Below, piece after piece: positions 293-7,693 of a stretch of DNA of 7,821 bases. The position numbers were made by a program, and so were the translations under genes. Within the stretch, counting starts at the first letter, position 1. Every line of letters starts with the position of its first letter. The notes under the pieces were generated by a model. It saw only the letters and a program-made list of their open reading frames with translations, searched no databases and had not been told where the DNA came from. Source of the stretch: Promethearchaeota archaeon (GTDB taxonomy: Archaea; Asgardarchaeota; Lokiarchaeia; Sigynarchaeales; SOKP01); the NCBI GenBank assembly GCA_016839905.1, contig JAEOTJ010000282.1, positions 1 to 7,821 on the forward strand, written 5' to 3'.

Positions 293-2203
293 TTATTTTA
301 AGAGAATTGTTTCTAAATTTCTTGGAGCTTTCGTAGCTTTACGTAATTTTTTATGAATCATGGTTGAAAGGGATACCGTTTTACTCTCTTCTCCGTGGTT
401 AGTGATTACCATTTTTGGTCTTGGCTGAATTCTACGTAAGAATTGTGAAATCTGACTTCTTGAAGAATGCCCAGAAAATCCTTCTAATGTGAAATGTTTT
501 AATTTTAATTTTACTAATTGAGTTCTCCCTTTAGAGTCAACATATTGGAATTCCCTGAATCCCCTCTGAATCCTACTTCCTAAAGTTCCTGATACTTGAT
601 AAGACACAAAAATTAATGAACTCTTATCGTCAGATGCAAGAGCTTTTAAGTATTGTACGGATGGACCCCCTATAAGCATACCAGAAGTCGCTAGAATAAT
701 TGAGGAACCACCTTTGATAATATCAAGTCTTTCTTCATAAGAACTAACTGTAGTGAAGAAGTCGCTTAAGAAGGGATTTTTTCCTTGATGTAAAATTTTC
801 TCTCTTAAATCGCTACTAAGAAAATCAGGATTTGCTGTATGTATCGCAGTTGCTTCAGAAATCAACCCATCAAGAAAAATAGGTACTTTATCAATTAATC
901 CTTTAGAAATATATTCTTCTAAAACAATTATTAATTCTTGAGCCCTTCCTACTGCTAATACTGGAATTAAAACCTTTCCACCTTTTTTAATAGTTGCTGT
1001 TAATATTTGTCTAAGTTCCCGTTCCGAATCTTGTCGGCTGGGAATTCTATCTTGTGGTCCTCCGTAAGTGGATTCTATAAGTAAACTCTCAACTCTAGGG
1101 AATTTAACAGCAGCTTTTTCTAATAATCTAGTTTTTTGAAATTTGAAATCACCGGTATAAACAAAATTATATCCGCCTTTTCCAAAATGCAAATGAACCA
1201 TTGAAGATCCTAAGATGTGTCCAGAATTATGAAGTGTTAATTTAATATCTGGAGCAATATCAGTGACTTTTCCCCATGATAATGGAATAGTATGCAATAC
1301 TGTTGACTTCACATCTCCCTTTGAATAAGGTGCAGGAGTGCCTTCCTTTTCACATATTTGAACAAAATCCAATTGAAGCATTGTGGCTAAATTCCTTGTA
1401 GGTAAAGTACAATATACTGGTCCTCTATATCCATATTTATAAAGAAAAGGAACAAGACCACAATGATCTAAATGGGCATGTGAAACAATTACGGCATCAA
1501 GATCTCTTATAGAAAATTCGAATACGTCAAAAAAGGGGAATTTATCATTTGGATTTCCTATATTTAGACCACAATCAAGTAATACGTTACTATCTTTTGT
1601 TTGAGTTAGGATACAAGACCTTCCAACTTCTCTAAAACCTCCCAGTGCAGTCAAACGAATGGTTAGATTATTAAACATCATAGGGCGGTGTATTCTTTTT
1701 CCTATTCTTAATAAGATATCTTTTTGTGTTTTACGTTCTTTTTTTAACATATTTCTTATTAATTGTATGGTTCTGGAAGGTAATGGGGGAGTTCGTATTG
1801 TTTTAGGTTGCCAAAATGTATTTGTACGTATTTCTTTTAAATTAACACCCTTTTTTCCAATAACTAAACCAGGTTTAACAGACTCGATAATCACTTCTCC
1901 TCTTGTATGATCAAATTCAATTGCAGACATTTCTGCTTCTTCACCTATTAGATTTCTAATGTATGCTTCTGTTTCTGAAGGATCCATTCTCTTATCTACA
2001 TTCCATCGAAAAACAACCCTTTTTCGCATGATTTTTGCGAGGTCTTTTAAAATATTAGAATCCTCAATAACTCCCACTTCCGAATTTTCTGAATATACCG
2101 CAATTTCAGGACCTTCAAATTCTATCCTCTTAACTTTTATTTCCGGGGGTAAATTTTTTATAATTTCCTCCTTAATTCTTTGTAATTCTCCTTCAAAACT
2201 CAA
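293..2203 (-). CDS. fttA: FttA / aCPSF1, beta-CASP ribonuclease and transcription termination factor
   Basis: This is a 636-residue archaeal homologue of the eukaryotic cleavage and polyadenylation nuclease CPSF73. The family cleaves nascent RNA 3' ends and releases RNA polymerase. Its domain order is complete. Tandem N-terminal KH-like RNA-binding domains (about 1-150) include the GKKG loop at 116-119. A metallo-beta-lactamase domain follows, with HAHLDH at 242-247, His329 (NSGHILG) and Asp352 (GDFKF). The beta-CASP insert starts after Glu377 (IESTYGG), and the final motifs carry His579 (FSGHSSR) and His603 (TNHGE). All expected zinc ligands are present, so an active nuclease is predicted. 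The length is usual for aCPSF1. The start is TTG at 2201-2203: an in-frame stop lies six codons upstream, the next in-frame Met is residue 58, and GGAG lies 10 nt upstream. It is divergent from purN, with its own transcript. Confidence 0.95.
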   Translation of the reverse strand: MSFEGELQRIKEEIIKNLPPEIKVKRIEFEGPEIAVYSENSEVGVIEDSNILKDLAKIMRKRVVFRWNVDKRMDPSETEAYIRNLIGEEAEMSAIEFDHTRGEVIIESVKPGLVIGKKGVNLKEIRTNTFWQPKTIRTPPLPSRTIQLIRNMLKKERKTQKDILLRIGKRIHRPMMFNNLTIRLTALGGFREVGRSCILTQTKDSNVLLDCGLNIGNPNDKFPFFDVFEFSIRDLDAVIVSHAHLDHCGLVPFLYKYGYRGPVYCTLPTRNLATMLQLDFVQICEKEGTPAPYSKGDVKSTVLHTIPLSWGKVTDIAPDIKLTLHNSGHILGSSMVHLHFGKGGYNFVYTGDFKFQKTRLLEKAAVKFPRVESLLIESTYGGPQDRIPSRQDSERELRQILTATIKKGGKVLIPVLAVGRAQELIIVLEEYISKGLIDKVPIFLDGLISEATAIHTANPDFLSSDLREKILHQGKNPFLSDFFTTVSSYEERLDIIKGGSSIILATSGMLIGGPSVQYLKALASDDKSSLIFVSYQVSGTLGSRIQRGFREFQYVDSKGRTQLVKLKLKHFTLEGFSGHSSRSQISQFLRRIQPRPKMVITNHGEESKTVSLSTMIHKKLRKATKAPRNLETILLK

Positions 2204-2508: not shown

Positions 2509-3141
2509 ATGGATAAATTAAAAATTGGTGCTATTGCCTCTGGGTCTGGTAGTAATTTTGAAGCAATAATTCAATCAACAAAAACAGGAATTTTAAAGGA
2601 TAAAGCTCGTGTAGAAGTCTTGATTTGTAATAAAGCTGGAGCCTATTGCTTGGAAAGGGCAAAAAATCACGATATTCCCAATTATCTAATTGAAAGTGAT
2701 AAGCATGAAGGGACTCGTGAAGAATTTGATCAGAAAATGATTGATGTTTTGGAAAAATATGACTGTGAACTTATAGTTCTCGTTGGATACATGAGATTTG
2801 TAAGTCAAATGTTCATTAAGGCTTTCAATGGCAATGTTATGAATATACATCCGGCGCTTTTACCATCATTTAAGGGAATGCACGCCCACTTAGATGCTTT
2901 AACATATGGCGTTAAGGTCTCTGGAGTTACAGTTCATTTTGTTGATCCTAAGGAGGATCATGGGCCGATCATCATTCAACACGCAGTTCCTGTCTATGAC
3001 ACGGACACTAAAGAAACTTTAGGTCCAAGAATCCTAGAATGGGAACATAAAGCTTTTCCAAAAGCAATTGAGTTATTTTGTGATAAAAAATTACATTTAG
3101 ATGGTAGAATAGTTCGCATTGATGGAGAAGTGAAATTATAA
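2509..3141 (+). CDS. purN: Phosphoribosylglycinamide formyltransferase (GAR transformylase)
   Basis: This cytosolic enzyme transfers the formyl group of 10-formyl-tetrahydrofolate to GAR, the third step of de novo purine synthesis. The 210 residues match the usual single-domain PurN length. The phosphate-binding loop SGSGSN is at 11-16. Asn112 and His114 of MNIHPALLPS, and Asp150 of EDHGP, align with the catalytic Asn106, His108 and Asp144 of the E. coli enzyme, a constant offset of six. The C-terminal EHKAFPKAI helix is also typical. There is no ACT domain, which argues against PurU (formyl-THF hydrolase). No other pur gene adjoins it, so it looks monocistronic. Many archaea use the formate-dependent PurT instead; PurN implies a folate one-carbon supply in this organism (inference). 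Confidence 0.95.
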   Translation: MDKLKIGAIASGSGSNFEAIIQSTKTGILKDKARVEVLICNKAGAYCLERAKNHDIPNYLIESDKHEGTREEFDQKMIDVLEKYDCELIVLVGYMRFVSQMFIKAFNGNVMNIHPALLPSFKGMHAHLDALTYGVKVSGVTVHFVDPKEDHGPIIIQHAVPVYDTDTKETLGPRILEWEHKAFPKAIELFCDKKLHLDGRIVRIDGEVKL

Positions 3142-3369: not shown

Positions 3370-5559
3370 ATGCCACGCCGAAAAGAGATATCAGAAATCT
3401 TAAAATTAATGAAAAATATCCCCCAAATTAGGAATATTGGTTTAGTTGGGCACATAGATCACGGGAAGACAACTTTATCAGACTCTCTTTTAAGCGAAGC
3501 AGGTTTGTTATCTCCAGATATCGCTGGTGAAGCTCGAGCATTAGATTATCTCGAAGAGGAGCAAAAACGCGGCATAACCATGAAATCTACAAATATTTCC
3601 TTATATTATGAAAAATCTCATGAGAGAGAAGAGCCTTTTCTCATCAATTTAGTAGATACTCCAGGTCACTTGGATTTTAGTGGTAAAGTTACTCGCGCTT
3701 TACGGTTAATAGATGGAGTGATAGTCGTAGTAGATGCTGTGGAAGAGATAATTTCCCAATCGGAGACGGTTATAAAACAAGCCATTCAAGAAGGCGTTAA
3801 ACCAATACTTTATATTAATAAAATCGATCGTTTAATTAGAGAATTAAGATTATCAGATGAAGATATAAGGAAAAAATATATTAGGATAATAAATTCCTTC
3901 AATACACTTATAGAACGTTATGCTAAGCCACCCTTTAATGAGGAATGGAAAATTAATCCGGCAGCGGGAAATATTGCATTCGGTTCTGCGCTTCATAAAT
4001 GGGGGTTTACATCTAAAATATTAGAAGAAAGTGATATCAAATTTAAGAATATTCGAGAGAGATATAAAAAGGAAACATATGCAGAAAGAAATTATGAAGA
4101 TCTACCAGTATATCTTCCCATTCATAGAGCAATACTCGAGGCCGTAGTAGATCATCTCCCAAATCCTCTTGAAGCTCAGAAGTATAGGATTAAAAAAATT
4201 TGGGATGGAGACCTTGACTCGGATGTTGGGAAATCAATGGTAAATTGTAATCCTAATGGTCCATTAATTATTTGTTTAAGTAAAGTCCAAGCGGACAAGC
4301 ACGGGCTCATCGCAACTGGAAGGGTCTTCTCTGGTAATTGTTCTAAAAAGGGAGAGGTCTTTCTTTTAGGAGAAAATCAGTATGAAACAATTCAGCGCAT
4401 AGCAATTTTTATGGGACAGAGAAGAGAACAAGTTGATGAGATACCCGTCGGAAACATTGTTGCGATAGAAGGAATTAAAAAGGTTAAAAGCGGAGAATCA
4501 ATAGTGGATGCAAATTTTATTGACAAAATGGTTCCATTTGGTAGTGTAAAATATGTTACAACCCCAGTTGTTACAGTATCAATTGAACCTGAATATTTAA
4601 GAGATTTAGACAAGATGAAGGGAATTATTGAAAACTTATTAATAGAAGATCCCAATCTACATTTTGAAATAAATGAAGAAAACGGTGAATTTCTTTTATC
4701 TGGAATGGGCCCATTACATTTAGAAGTAATGGCAAATGAGATTGAGAAAAGAGGCATTAGAGTTTCTGCCTCTGAGCCCAGAGCTGTCTTTAAAGAGTCA
4801 TTGAGAACAGAATCCTCGATCATTTCGGTTAAATCTTCAAATGGTCAAAGCAATTTAGACTTGAAAATTGAAAAATTAGATGAAAAGTCAGTAAGATTTT
4901 TTCAGAAACAGGATTATAAATCTATAAAACCTGCGAGCAGGATAAAGGAAGTCTTAAAAGAAAAGACTAATTTATCAGACTTCGAGAAAGAGAACTTTTG
5001 GATGTGCGATAATGATCAAAATGTTTTAATTTTTGAGGGTAAATCAGAACTTAATGATTTTAATAGAAAATTAATATTAGAAATAATTGAAAACATTCAT
5101 TTGAATGGCCCTCTCTGTGGAGAGAAATTAACTGAGATTAAATTAACCATTAAAAACTTAGACATATCAAAATTAAATGAAGAGGTTGCATTTACAGAAT
5201 TATCCACGATGTTCTATAGTGCCATTAAAAAGGGTTTAAACGAGGGAGAACTCATATTAATGGAACCTATTTATCATACTATCATTCAATTACCTCCTGA
5301 ATATATTAAAAATACTCTTTCTTTACTATCCAAATTTTCTGCTAAAATTAACGAAGTGAATCAAGAAAACGAGTATCAAGCAATGTTGGAAATTTACATA
5401 CCTGTTAGAAATTCTATTAAATTTGCTAAAGACATAAGATCTATCACATCTGGAAAAGCTTTTTGGCAAAATGAATTTCATGCCTTTATGGAAGTTCCCG
5501 CACATGAAGCTAAAACGATAATAAATAATTTGCATTTTATTAAAGGGCAGGTATGGTAA
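3370..5559 (+). CDS. EF-2 paralogue without the diphthamide loop (aEF-2p-like translational GTPase)
   Basis: These 729 residues show full-length EF-2 architecture. The GTPase core is intact: P-loop GHIDHGKT at 27-34, switch I RGITM at 68-72, DTPGH at 96-100, NKID at 150-153 and the G5-like GSAL at 205-208. Domains II and III follow (FLLSGMGPLHLEV at 441-453). Domain IV is degenerate. The usual SPNKHN-type loop reads SSNGQSN at 489-495. After GPLCGE (580-585), where EF-2 has DAIHRGxxQ with the diphthamide histidine, this protein has only KLNEEVAFTEL (601-611), about four residues shorter and with no His. The usual C-terminal RKRKGLKPEPP-type tail is also missing. GTP hydrolysis and ribosome binding are plausible, but diphthamide modification is impossible here. 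Second EF-2 copies of this kind are described in Asgard archaea; their role is unknown. An ordinary EF-2 is presumably encoded elsewhere. Confidence 0.9.
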   Translation: MPRRKEISEILKLMKNIPQIRNIGLVGHIDHGKTTLSDSLLSEAGLLSPDIAGEARALDYLEEEQKRGITMKSTNISLYYEKSHEREEPFLINLVDTPGHLDFSGKVTRALRLIDGVIVVVDAVEEIISQSETVIKQAIQEGVKPILYINKIDRLIRELRLSDEDIRKKYIRIINSFNTLIERYAKPPFNEEWKINPAAGNIAFGSALHKWGFTSKILEESDIKFKNIRERYKKETYAERNYEDLPVYLPIHRAILEAVVDHLPNPLEAQKYRIKKIWDGDLDSDVGKSMVNCNPNGPLIICLSKVQADKHGLIATGRVFSGNCSKKGEVFLLGENQYETIQRIAIFMGQRREQVDEIPVGNIVAIEGIKKVKSGESIVDANFIDKMVPFGSVKYVTTPVVTVSIEPEYLRDLDKMKGIIENLLIEDPNLHFEINEENGEFLLSGMGPLHLEVMANEIEKRGIRVSASEPRAVFKESLRTESSIISVKSSNGQSNLDLKIEKLDEKSVRFFQKQDYKSIKPASRIKEVLKEKTNLSDFEKENFWMCDNDQNVLIFEGKSELNDFNRKLILEIIENIHLNGPLCGEKLTEIKLTIKNLDISKLNEEVAFTELSTMFYSAIKKGLNEGELILMEPIYHTIIQLPPEYIKNTLSLLSKFSAKINEVNQENEYQAMLEIYIPVRNSIKFAKDIRSITSGKAFWQNEFHAFMEVPAHEAKTIINNLHFIKGQVW

Positions 5560-5936: not shown

Positions 5937-6803
5937 ATGGGATTTATTATGATTGAATATATAATTCTTGCAGTTTTACAAGGTCTTGTCGAATTTTTAC
6001 CAATATCATCTTCGGGTCAAACAATGATCTTCGCGATTAATGTTTATGGAATCTCTCCAGAGGAGGCTTTTAGTTTAGCAATATTTTTACATTTGGGAAC
6101 TTTATTTGCAGTAATTGTAAGATATAGAAGGGATTTTATAAAAATTGGAAAAGCTTGTCTTCCAAATAAATTTAGAGTTGATGATATCGATAGAAAAAAA
6201 AGGAATTGGTTAATTATTGCTACTATAGCAACTGCAATAACAGCTTTACCACTTTATTTCATATTTAAATTTTTAATAATTCATGGGTTTACAGCTTTCG
6301 AGGGAGATATCATAACTTTGATTATTGCTGGATTGTTACTTGTTACTGGTATAATTTTGCTCAAGACTAAAAAGGATTTTGGCAGGAATACTTTAGAAGA
6401 TGTATCTGAAAGTGATTTACAAAAAGATAGTTTTTTATCGGGATTAATTCAAGGAGTTGCAATCTTACCCGGTATTTCACGCTCAGGAATTACTGTTTCA
6501 GCAATTCTTCTAGAGGATTATGAACAAGAGGATGCTTTAAAGTTAAGTTTTTTAATGTCCGTTCCAGCTGTCCTCGCTTCTATCGCGGTAGATATCGTAT
6601 TTGGAGAGGGATCTGTTTTTGGAACCTTAGATCTCTTTACAATTATAGTGATTACAGCGGTAAGTTTTGTAGTAGGATACCTCACCATGGAAGTTTTACT
6701 TAAATTGGCTCAAAAGGTCGAGTTTGGTTATTTTTGTATTATATACGGTATAATTGCTTTTGCTATAATCATACCATTTTTATTTATTCCTATGAGTTCT
6801 TAA
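5937..6803 (+). CDS. uppP: UppP/BacA-family polyprenyl-diphosphate phosphatase
   Basis: This integral membrane protein of 288 residues has about eight hydrophobic segments. It belongs to the BacA family, which removes one phosphate from C55 (in archaea presumably dolichyl-type) diphosphate to recycle the lipid carrier for glycan assembly. Both family signatures are present: QGLVEFLPISSSG at 15-27 (Gln15 and Glu19 of the E-rich motif) and LPGISRSGIT at 177-186 with Arg182. One odd point is that the residue after SSSG, His30 in E. coli BacA and regarded as catalytic, is Gln28 here. This may be an archaeal variant. The start is 5937, where the TATA box fits; Met5 (5949) would match bacterial N-termini equally well. 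The last bases overlap the stop of the convergent ATP-grasp gene. Confidence 0.88.
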   Translation: MGFIMIEYIILAVLQGLVEFLPISSSGQTMIFAINVYGISPEEAFSLAIFLHLGTLFAVIVRYRRDFIKIGKACLPNKFRVDDIDRKKRNWLIIATIATAITALPLYFIFKFLIIHGFTAFEGDIITLIIAGLLLVTGIILLKTKKDFGRNTLEDVSESDLQKDSFLSGLIQGVAILPGISRSGITVSAILLEDYEQEDALKLSFLMSVPAVLASIAVDIVFGEGSVFGTLDLFTIIVITAVSFVVGYLTMEVLLKLAQKVEFGYFCIIYGIIAFAIIIPFLFIPMSS

Positions 6804-7693
6804 ATTTCAAGCAATTTTTTAAAATAACTAACGAAGACATTCTCAATATTTGGTATCCCTCTAAAACCTGGGAAATCGTTTAAATCTATTAGGTAATACA
6901 TGTCCTTATCAATAGGTTTTATTAAATCAAATCCAAAGATTTTTAAATTTAATTCTTTTCCAAGCAAGTGAGCAAAGTTTTTTATCTCATCTGTAATTTC
7001 AAACTCTTCCCTTTCAAGTGTAGTGGTATCAATATTCTCGGGTTTTTCTTTTAAGAAAATGTAGATCGGATTTTCTCTCTGAATTGCAAAAACTTTATCG
7101 CCAACAACATATATTTTCCGGTCGATACCATCGCATTTAATAAATTCTTGAATGTAGACATCATAATAAAGGAAATGCTTGTATCTCTCGCAAAAATAAT
7201 CAACATCTTTATCAAGTTCCCTAACAAGAAAATTAAATCGCATGTATTTATCGTGTTGATAATGGCTTTTTATTACAAGTGGCAAGCGATTAGATGCCCA
7301 CGCTTTAAACTTATCAATATTTAATAAAGAGTGAGTCCATGATTTAGGCATCAAGAAATTATTCAATTTATTAGAGTATTTTTTAAATACTCTTCGTAAT
7401 GCTTGATCTAGACTTACTTTGTTTTTACACATTAATACAGTATCTAAATCATGTAAAGTAGGGATATTATAAAGCTTGGCAAAATGGAGCAGGTCAATAG
7501 AGCATTCACTTCCTACTTTAACAATGAAAAAATCCACATCTTTAAAATATTTTGGTAAATCTTCTAAATCTAGAAAATCCGTAGTTGGATCGTGAAAAAT
7601 AAATTCAAAATCTTTAAAGTTTTTTAATTCTAATATGATATCTTTTAAAACATCATGTTGAGTTTTGGCAGAAAAAAGAATTTTTTTTCCCAT
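6800..7693 (-). CDS. ATP-grasp protein resembling inositol 1,3,4-trisphosphate 5/6-kinase
   Basis: The 297 residues have an ATP-grasp fold, with an N-terminal Rossmann-like part (about 1-85), then CKNK at 89-92, a nucleotide-binding lysine Lys142 (LPLVIKSH), the hinge YIQEFI at 180-185, and KIYVVGDKVFAIQR at 193-206. The metal-binding residues are Asp256 (GFDLI), Asp270 and Asn272 (LIDLNDFPGF). The Asp-Asp-Asn set, its 14- and 2-residue spacing and the FPGF ending resemble ITPK more than RimK-type ligases, which use Glu as the middle ligand. A kinase acting on a phosphorylated polyol is thus the leading guess; an amino-acid ligase remains possible. There is no signal peptide or membrane segment, so it is cytosolic. 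A TATA box 28 bp upstream predicts a leaderless mRNA. It converges on uppP with overlapping stops. Confidence 0.75.
   Translation of the reverse strand: MGKKILFSAKTQHDVLKDIILELKNFKDFEFIFHDPTTDFLDLEDLPKYFKDVDFFIVKVGSECSIDLLHFAKLYNIPTLHDLDTVLMCKNKVSLDQALRRVFKKYSNKLNNFLMPKSWTHSLLNIDKFKAWASNRLPLVIKSHYQHDKYMRFNFLVRELDKDVDYFCERYKHFLYYDVYIQEFIKCDGIDRKIYVVGDKVFAIQRENPIYIFLKEKPENIDTTTLEREEFEITDEIKNFAHLLGKELNLKIFGFDLIKPIDKDMYYLIDLNDFPGFRGIPNIENVFVSYFKKLLEI
6815..6820 (+). terminator. Possible U-tract terminator of uppP inside the opposing gene
   Basis: T6 lies 12 bases beyond the uppP stop, inside the last codons of the ATP-grasp gene on the other strand. It is the first + strand T-run available after uppP. 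Confidence 0.3.

Follow-up and report, generated by a model that had tools for sequence, protein, structure and literature searches.

We examined an EF-2 family gene in a window of 7,821 nucleotides (the whole stretch of lokiarchaeal DNA that was analysed), where it forms one complete, uninterrupted frame whose coordinates we verified. A phosphoribosylglycinamide formyltransferase gene (purN) precedes it on the same strand, the transcription termination nuclease aCPSF1/FttA lies further upstream on the other strand, and a convergent tRNA gene follows (Table 1). Beyond the tRNA, a UppP/BacA-like gene (5937-6803) overlaps tail to tail with an ATP-grasp gene (6800-7693) that matches both Ins(1,3,4)P3 5/6-kinase and RimK. 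Statements made below at the level of genomes (partner copy, dph genes) concern relatives of the source organism.

Table 1. Features of the aEF-2p gene and its neighbours in the window
Feature	Positions	Strand	Basis
aCPSF1/FttA transcription termination nuclease	293..2203	-	TIGR03675 870 bits
PurN (phosphoribosylglycinamide formyltransferase)	2509..3141	+	TIGR00639 213.8 bits, cut-off 150.1
aEF-2p gene, 729 aa	3370..5559	+	ORF; TIGR00490 611 bits; 119 other listed homologues 72-83% identical
G1 / P-loop GHIDHGKT, residues 27-34, intact	3448..3471	+	motif scan; invariant in 54 aligned sequences
G2 / switch I RGIT, residues 67-70, intact	3568..3579	+	alignment, motif scan
G3 / switch II DTPGH, residues 96-100, intact with His100	3655..3669	+	alignment, motif scan
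G4 NKID, residues 150-153, intact	3817..3828	+	motif scan
G5 GSA, residues 205-207, intact	3982..3990	+	alignment, motif scan
Domain IV, residues 476-625, diverged, length equal to other Loki copy	4795..5244	+	no Pfam EFG_IV match
Degenerate second tip loop KSSNGQSN, residues 488-495, replacing KSPNKHN	4831..4854	+	
Remodelled domain IV tip ISKLNEEVAFTELS, residues 599-612	5164..5205	+	gapless alignments; model helix from residue 604
Glu605 codon, position of the diphthamide His	5182..5184	+	alignments
Shortened C-terminus ...FIKGQVW-stop, RKRKG..-type tail missing	5536..5559	+	alignments, pattern counts
tRNA-Gly(CCC), convergent, 9 nt past the aEF-2p stop codon	5569..5639	-	

Sequence and fold searches both verify that the product is related to EF-2 and shares its fold, with EF-2 and Snu114 chains the only ones among the fold matches listed. 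All five G motifs are whole in a motif scan, as the preliminary description of this DNA had stated. The best 120 listed homologues, the window protein included, are all 716-731 aa long; where the organism is stated they come from Promethearchaeota, some labelled Loki-, Thor-, Hod- or Hermodarchaeota, and the 51 best loci in named genomes all belong to Lokiarchaeota or Lokiarchaeia records. The score against the canonical archaeal EF-2 model TIGR00490 lies under the curated cut-off of 738 bits, which none of the EF-2s of 12 related Loki genomes reaches, and the protein has neither the diphthamide His at its tip nor the RKRKG tail at its C-terminus that a canonical EF-2 carries. The protein thus combines intact GTPase motifs with the loss of the diphthamide His and surrounding tip residues, two of the traits of aEF-2p, a diphthamide-lacking EF-2 paralogue reportedly described in Asgard archaea by Narrowe et al. 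in 2018. The published aEF-2p is the second EF-2 of dph-less Asgard genomes with key diphthamide residues missing, and we see no difference in kind from the window protein. The latter is therefore the aEF-2p of a lokiarchaeon, the known second Loki-type EF-2 copy, and its gene is one more member of a kind already in print. Asgard aEF-2p without diphthamide is cited in the available text of PMC10307638, PMC9887622 and PMC10989751, in agreement with the earlier remark that such second copies are known.

Two eukaryotic EF-2 relatives were considered as orthologues. Like aEF-2p, EFL1, the eIF6-release GTPase, is an EF-2 family factor that exists beside a translocase, and Snu114/EFTUD2, which does not translocate, shares the EF-2 fold. 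Orthology with EFL1 is ruled out by score (219 bits versus 567 for Sulfolobus EF-2) and length (1120 aa versus 729 aa). Snu114/EFTUD2 scores 222 bits versus the same 567 and has an N-terminal extension missing in the window protein, whose residue 3 is matched to the beginning of archaeal EF-2, so it too is rejected.

Domain IV is where aEF-2p departs from type A, the other EF-2 of the same Loki genomes, which shares its fold and of which we also listed 120 homologues. Type A keeps the tip loop, the KSxNxHN loop and the tail, whereas aEF-2p is without them. In aEF-2p, Glu605 aligns with the diphthamide His, and any His within residues 590-615 is found in only 2 of the 120 listed sequences, window protein included. 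The KSxNxHN pattern occurs in none of the 120 listed aEF-2p versus 99 of 120 type A, and the W-x-R-F tail in none versus 110 of 120, the patterns for type A being slightly stricter than those for aEF-2p. The loss of the His and the degenerate or missing SPNKHN-type loop and RKRKG tail are thus borne out. A deletion of about four loop residues, also proposed from the sequence, is not: no gap crosses residues 584-628 in any of the 120 listed aEF-2p, alignments of the tip with Sulfolobus EF-2, with the second Loki EF-2 and with the EF-2 of dph-bearing Asgards are gapless, and the stretch 476-627 measures 152 aa, as in type A. Since 120 sequences share the gapless tip, an assembly error, which had been named as another possible cause of the loop loss, is ruled out as well. 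Divergence here is nonetheless strong compared with type A. A Pfam scan matched EFG_IV in none of four aEF-2p versus both type A proteins, precomputed domains give 0/120 versus 120/120 of those listed, and mean domain IV identity is 44.6% versus 64.9% among 8 of the 12 Loki genomes, those in which both copies are whole.

AlphaFold models, both built on shallow alignments, suggest how the tip was rebuilt at constant length. For the window protein (pLDDT 74.8 overall, 82-92 around the tip and, for much of the switch regions, below 50) the model predicts a strand at 590-598, a five-residue joint at 599-603 and a helix from 604. The type A model, weak overall (pLDDT 64.4; 85-87 at the tip, below 50 in the switch regions), places a strand at 596-604, a nine-residue joint at 605-613 and a helix from 614, with the His at 611 and a short helical turn at 609-611 inside the joint. 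Given a sequence offset of six between the copies, the aEF-2p helix would start about four residues earlier, and the predicted tip loop is shorter because the helix begins about one turn sooner. In these models the four "lost" residues look like a loop-to-helix conversion rather than a deletion.

We then looked at the partner copy. A second EF-2 stands beside aEF-2p in 12/12 related Loki genomes searched; one is a contig-end fragment and three carry an in-frame stop in an intron-like insert. This excludes, for the relatives, the case raised at the outset that aEF-2p is the sole EF-2 of a dph-less genome. The second copies that we inspected have an HEDPRHT-type tip and an RKRK...SWxRFIYK-type tail, and 101 of the 120 listed type A proteins match an HxDxxH tip pattern; ten of the remaining 19 were inspected and all read PRHT. 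The His-bearing partner that the preliminary description proposed to seek therefore exists in related Loki genomes, but not as the expected DAIHRGxxQ protein: its tip keeps the His with HT replacing HRG, and it has a diverged switch I (TDSD..ITIF) and a diverged G domain. A canonical copy accompanied by an odd one is too simple a picture.

According to the available text of PMC10307638, loss of dph genes is linked to a second EF-2 in Asgards, and this link holds in our set of 227 Asgard genomes of unstated completeness. dph2 (PF01866) is found in 21/227 and dph5 in 24/227. Neither was matched in any of the 50 genomes with an aEF-2p profile match above 900 bits, of which 46 have E = 0 and four score 911-921 bits, and 45 of these 50 show at least two EF-2 matches (E 1e-30). 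In the face of this count it is very improbable that aEF-2p serves its genome as a divergent main elongation factor with no other working EF-2 beside it. Conversely, among the 21 dph2-positive genomes 20 show one EF-2 gene, one shows none and none shows two. When 19 of them were re-searched, 12 proved to have two EF-2 pieces within one 811-826-aa frame and 4 to have a single gene in two adjacent pieces, while G089 has one match, G013 one fragment and G166 none. The other two of the 21, G090 and G091, had one match each in the first search. The 206 dph2-negative genomes show no EF-2 match in 7, one in 50 and two or more in 149 by hand count, at least three of the 149 (G056, G062, G085) being single genes in pieces and the rest partly checked. 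PF01902 (Dph6-like) is no clean marker: it occurs in 43/227 genomes, some Loki among them, and the Loki genomes G003, G009, G010, G108, G155 and others have a PF01902 gene without dph2 or dph5 matches, perhaps reflecting another function of that family. G021 has a dph5 match and no dph2 or PF01902 match, either a stray contig or a partial pathway. Two aEF-2p-like proteins, L113 and L115, retain His-Arg at the tip (EHRSPSN), and their genomes (G178 and G177) match neither dph2 nor dph5.

Apparent bulge-helix-bulge introns of ~30 nt break P-loop, switch I or switch II codons in several Asgard EF-2 genes other than that of the window. Seven type A genes (L094, L095, L096, L206, L207, L208 and L209, from G001, G003, G012, G114, G117, G112 and G139, respectively) are interrupted at the switch I codons by an insert of 30 nt that includes an in-frame stop. 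All seven fit a bulge-helix-bulge with a 4-bp central helix and two 3-nt bulges, cut after the second base, and in all seven removal of the insert gives the protein expected from intron-less relatives. The candidate was top-scoring in each, as well as in L212 (33 nt, switch II), and L094 and L096 show a paired change within the intron helix. The same scan gave no candidate for L211 and no restoring candidate for L210 (G151:C89), an aEF-2p gene with one in-frame TAG between REL and LTDEQ that is either a sequencing error or a broken gene. In the type A gene L205 (G116:C3), whose insert lay outside the scan, an insert of 30 nt resembling a bulge-helix-bulge intron falls within the P-loop codons, between AHI and DHGKTT. 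The database protein P0148 (Loki_b32, 702 aa) starts after the P-loop insert and has thus lost its P-loop in annotation; the same length of 702 aa is seen in 14 of the 120 listed type A homologues. Inserts of 29-33 nt lie at switch II (between DTPGH and V) in L117, L212 and L112, which are single or aEF-2p-like EF-2 genes, with the structure present in L117 and weak in L112, and L111 and L116 lose frame at the same place. Shuffling only the insert, in 20,000 trials for each of ten inserts, produced any such structure at a restoring cut in 13 to 71 trials (19-54 for the seven at switch I), and in 0 to 12 trials the real score was at least equalled. Bulge-helix-bulge-like introns thus appear, as judged from the genes, to sit in G1, G2 and G3 codons. 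Our literature searches listed no report of archaeal EF-2 mRNA introns; introns of cbf5 are known (PMC2738675).

To describe the constraint on aEF-2p, we compared 42 close pairs, not independent of one another, among 40 Loki aEF-2p genes. Mean dN/dS is 0.055 in the G domain, 0.076 in II, 0.078 in III, 0.186 in IV, 0.217 at the tip and 0.065 in V. The gene is under purifying selection throughout, looser in domain IV and the tip, and the tip, at about 0.2, is constrained and not decaying. A degenerating copy without function would account for the faster evolution of domain IV, but values far below 1 in every domain and the uniform length of the 120 listed homologues make it extremely improbable. 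The divergence of the tip relative to that of the protein's own G domain is 2.1 in aEF-2p and 1.9 in type A for the five closest genomes, and 2.4 and 1.4 for all eight. The initial proposal that selection has kept the GTPase while freeing the protein from its decoding-centre job fits the dN/dS values and the His-tipped partner; its premise of a deleted loop does not stand.

The two copies differ in which part has changed. Compared with the single EF-2 of dph-positive G090 and G091 (L105 and L107), mean identities over 9 aEF-2p and 8 type A sequences are 60% for aEF-2p versus 45% for type A in the G domain, 43% versus 32% in domain II, 49% versus 35% in domain III, 19% versus 36% in domain IV and 37% versus 38% in domain V. 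The copies thus diverge in complementary fashion, aEF-2p being nearer the presumed ancestral G, II and III domains and type A nearer the ancestral domain IV. This complementary divergence, the gapless remodelled tip and the measured selection are what the present analysis adds.

Using trees of archaeal rows only, all from quick searches, we examined the descent of the copies, counting as aEF-2p-like ("type B") any Asgard EF-2 with neither an HRG nor an HT tip, a definition that takes in L113-L115 (EHRS or ENRS). In domains I-III, 46 aEF-2p-like and two dph-positive rows separate from 34 type A rows with 98% SH-aLRT; this tree omits L106, L118, L131, L133, L150, L168 and L174 as near-duplicates or fragments and was flagged for a risk of long branches meeting. 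Type A sits on a long branch. Not all genes were readable in one frame (L111, L112, L116 and L117), and L148 had no usable frame. A mixture model on 41 hand-picked rows of 92, with L111, L112 and L117 represented by exon 2 only, places aEF-2p and the dph-positive rows together at 97%. Clade tests on these rows, run after the first tree had been seen, reject type A with dph-positive EF-2 (p-AU 0.037) and keep an aEF-2p-alone clade (0.451) and a grouping of aEF-2p with type A without the dph-positive rows (0.076). The C-terminal half likewise disfavours type A with dph-positive EF-2 (0.0225) and keeps aEF-2p with it (0.628), although neither grouping appears in its free tree, where the dph-positive rows lie nearer to type A and the outgroup than to most aEF-2p rows, and the aEF-2p-like rows do not form one clade. 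A mosaic gene finds no support, since the type A grouping is disfavoured in both halves. Adding six more single-copy rows (811-826-aa EF-2s; L152 omitted for its long branch) lowers support to 89%, type A with all single copies is then no longer rejected (p-AU 0.158), and the single copies split between two positions within the aEF-2p-like rows. With moderate confidence, aEF-2p and not type A is probably the nearer relative of the single EF-2 in domains I-III.

The size of domain IV varies across the aEF-2p-like rows: the stretch corresponding to residues 476-627 spans 116-192 aa, versus 151-152 aa in type A. In 17 distant rows it is only 116-132 aa, and 15 of the 17 also end well before the tail. 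L135-L147, L151 and L152, with a stretch of 116-132 aa and an end before the tail, may be the same copy eroded to different extents across lineages. Separately, L183-L191 and L193-L196 (G053-G066) are single EF-2s of ~811-826 aa whose family match is broken after about position 215; dph2 is present in 12 of these genomes, and the available text of PMC10989751 describes eukaryote-like insertions in Hodar-lineage EF2. Tentatively, aEF-2p could be the true descendant of the ancestral Asgard EF-2, of the line that stayed translocase in dph-keeping Asgards and, by published Hodarchaeales trees, in eukaryotes. In dph-less Asgards this line would have given up translocation, with its tip remodelled or trimmed in ways that differ between lineages, and the fast-diverged sister type A would have taken over the decoding-centre work. 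Loss of diphthamide would then have been followed by a clean division of one essential machine between two copies, one conserving the GTPase and the other the tip. If this possible descent is true, the so-called paralogue would be a co-orthologue of the EF-2 line leading to eEF2.

We also asked what the surroundings of the gene reveal. Of 51 Loki loci, 47 have PurN upstream, always on the strand of aEF-2p (47/47), and 45 have FttA; two of these loci come from one genome and some are cut by contig ends. The gap between purN and the aEF-2p gene is 82-300 nt in 32/47 loci and longer in 15/47, a few being over-long since the called ORF starts late (e.g., L006), and with 15 gaps above 300 nt the two do not form a tight operon. 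Loki protein probes found none of the window's other genes in 20/20 loci of distant aEF-2p-like genes, some with short flanks, which rules out a general PurN-aEF-2p operon; the neighbourhood is a lead only. It bears on a role in storage or hibernation, in which aEF-2p would sit on idle 50S or 70S ribosomes, perhaps with a purine enzyme. The available text of PMC12605026 and PMC13324472 makes this a real rival, the former describing a PurH-aEF2 50S dimer (MRDF) in Methanosarcina, and the upstream PurN points the same way. We consider it improbable nonetheless: the neighbour is PurN and not PurH, it is neither tightly linked nor found in the distant loci, and the intact catalytic motifs suggest turnover rather than plugging.

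Our best explanation, to which we give a probability of about one half, is that aEF-2p, while still an EF-2-type GTPase that depends on the ribosome, has ceased to drive ordinary translocation and most likely serves ribosome splitting/recycling or eviction of aIF6. It draws on the whole set of G motifs, the purifying selection seen across all domains, the remodelled and constrained tip, the lost second loop and tail, and, in relatives, a partner that keeps the His tip and tail and the lack of any dph2 or dph5 match. Type A would be the translocase; aEF-2p would bind the same factor site as EF-2 and spend GTP on steps that do not need the decoding-centre loop, with splitting/recycling or removal of aIF6 from 50S the likeliest tasks and storage also conceivable. 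According to the available text of Lo Gullo et al. (PMC8024482), Sulfolobus aEF-2 frees aIF6 from 50S, so a spare EF-2 could specialise in this step. The low dN/dS of 0.08 in domains II and III, as for a factor touching 30S, favours a 70S role over a free or purely 50S one, and the tip-to-G divergence ratio hardly above that of type A in the five closest genomes, though higher in all eight, also weighs against the explanation.

A specialised translocase, acting on some mRNAs or in some states through a tip independent of diphthamide, is rather unlikely. The full-length, constrained domain IV of the Loki proteins would suit it, but neither tip loop survives, nor does the tail, and a domain IV stretch of 116-132 aa in the 17 distant rows is hard to reconcile with insertion into the decoding centre. 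Returning to a GTPase withdrawn from ordinary translocation, aEF-2p would act like mitochondrial EF-G2, probably its closest working analogue: according to the available text of PMC8203779, EF-G2mt is marked as a recycling factor by its altered tip loop together with a shortened C-terminal helix that lacks the extension. Both proteins have a changed tip loop and a shorter C-terminus than their translocase sister; unlike aEF-2p, EF-G2 is a bacterial-type EF-G that works with RRF. To our knowledge archaea have no RRF, so the comparison is an analogy only. Our literature searches, which took in few subscription papers, listed no report of a tested function for aEF-2p. The two copies make the question of how some archaea manage without diphthamide directly testable: one with the more ancestral GTPase half and the other with the more ancestral tip, they should divide translocation from a second task on the ribosome.
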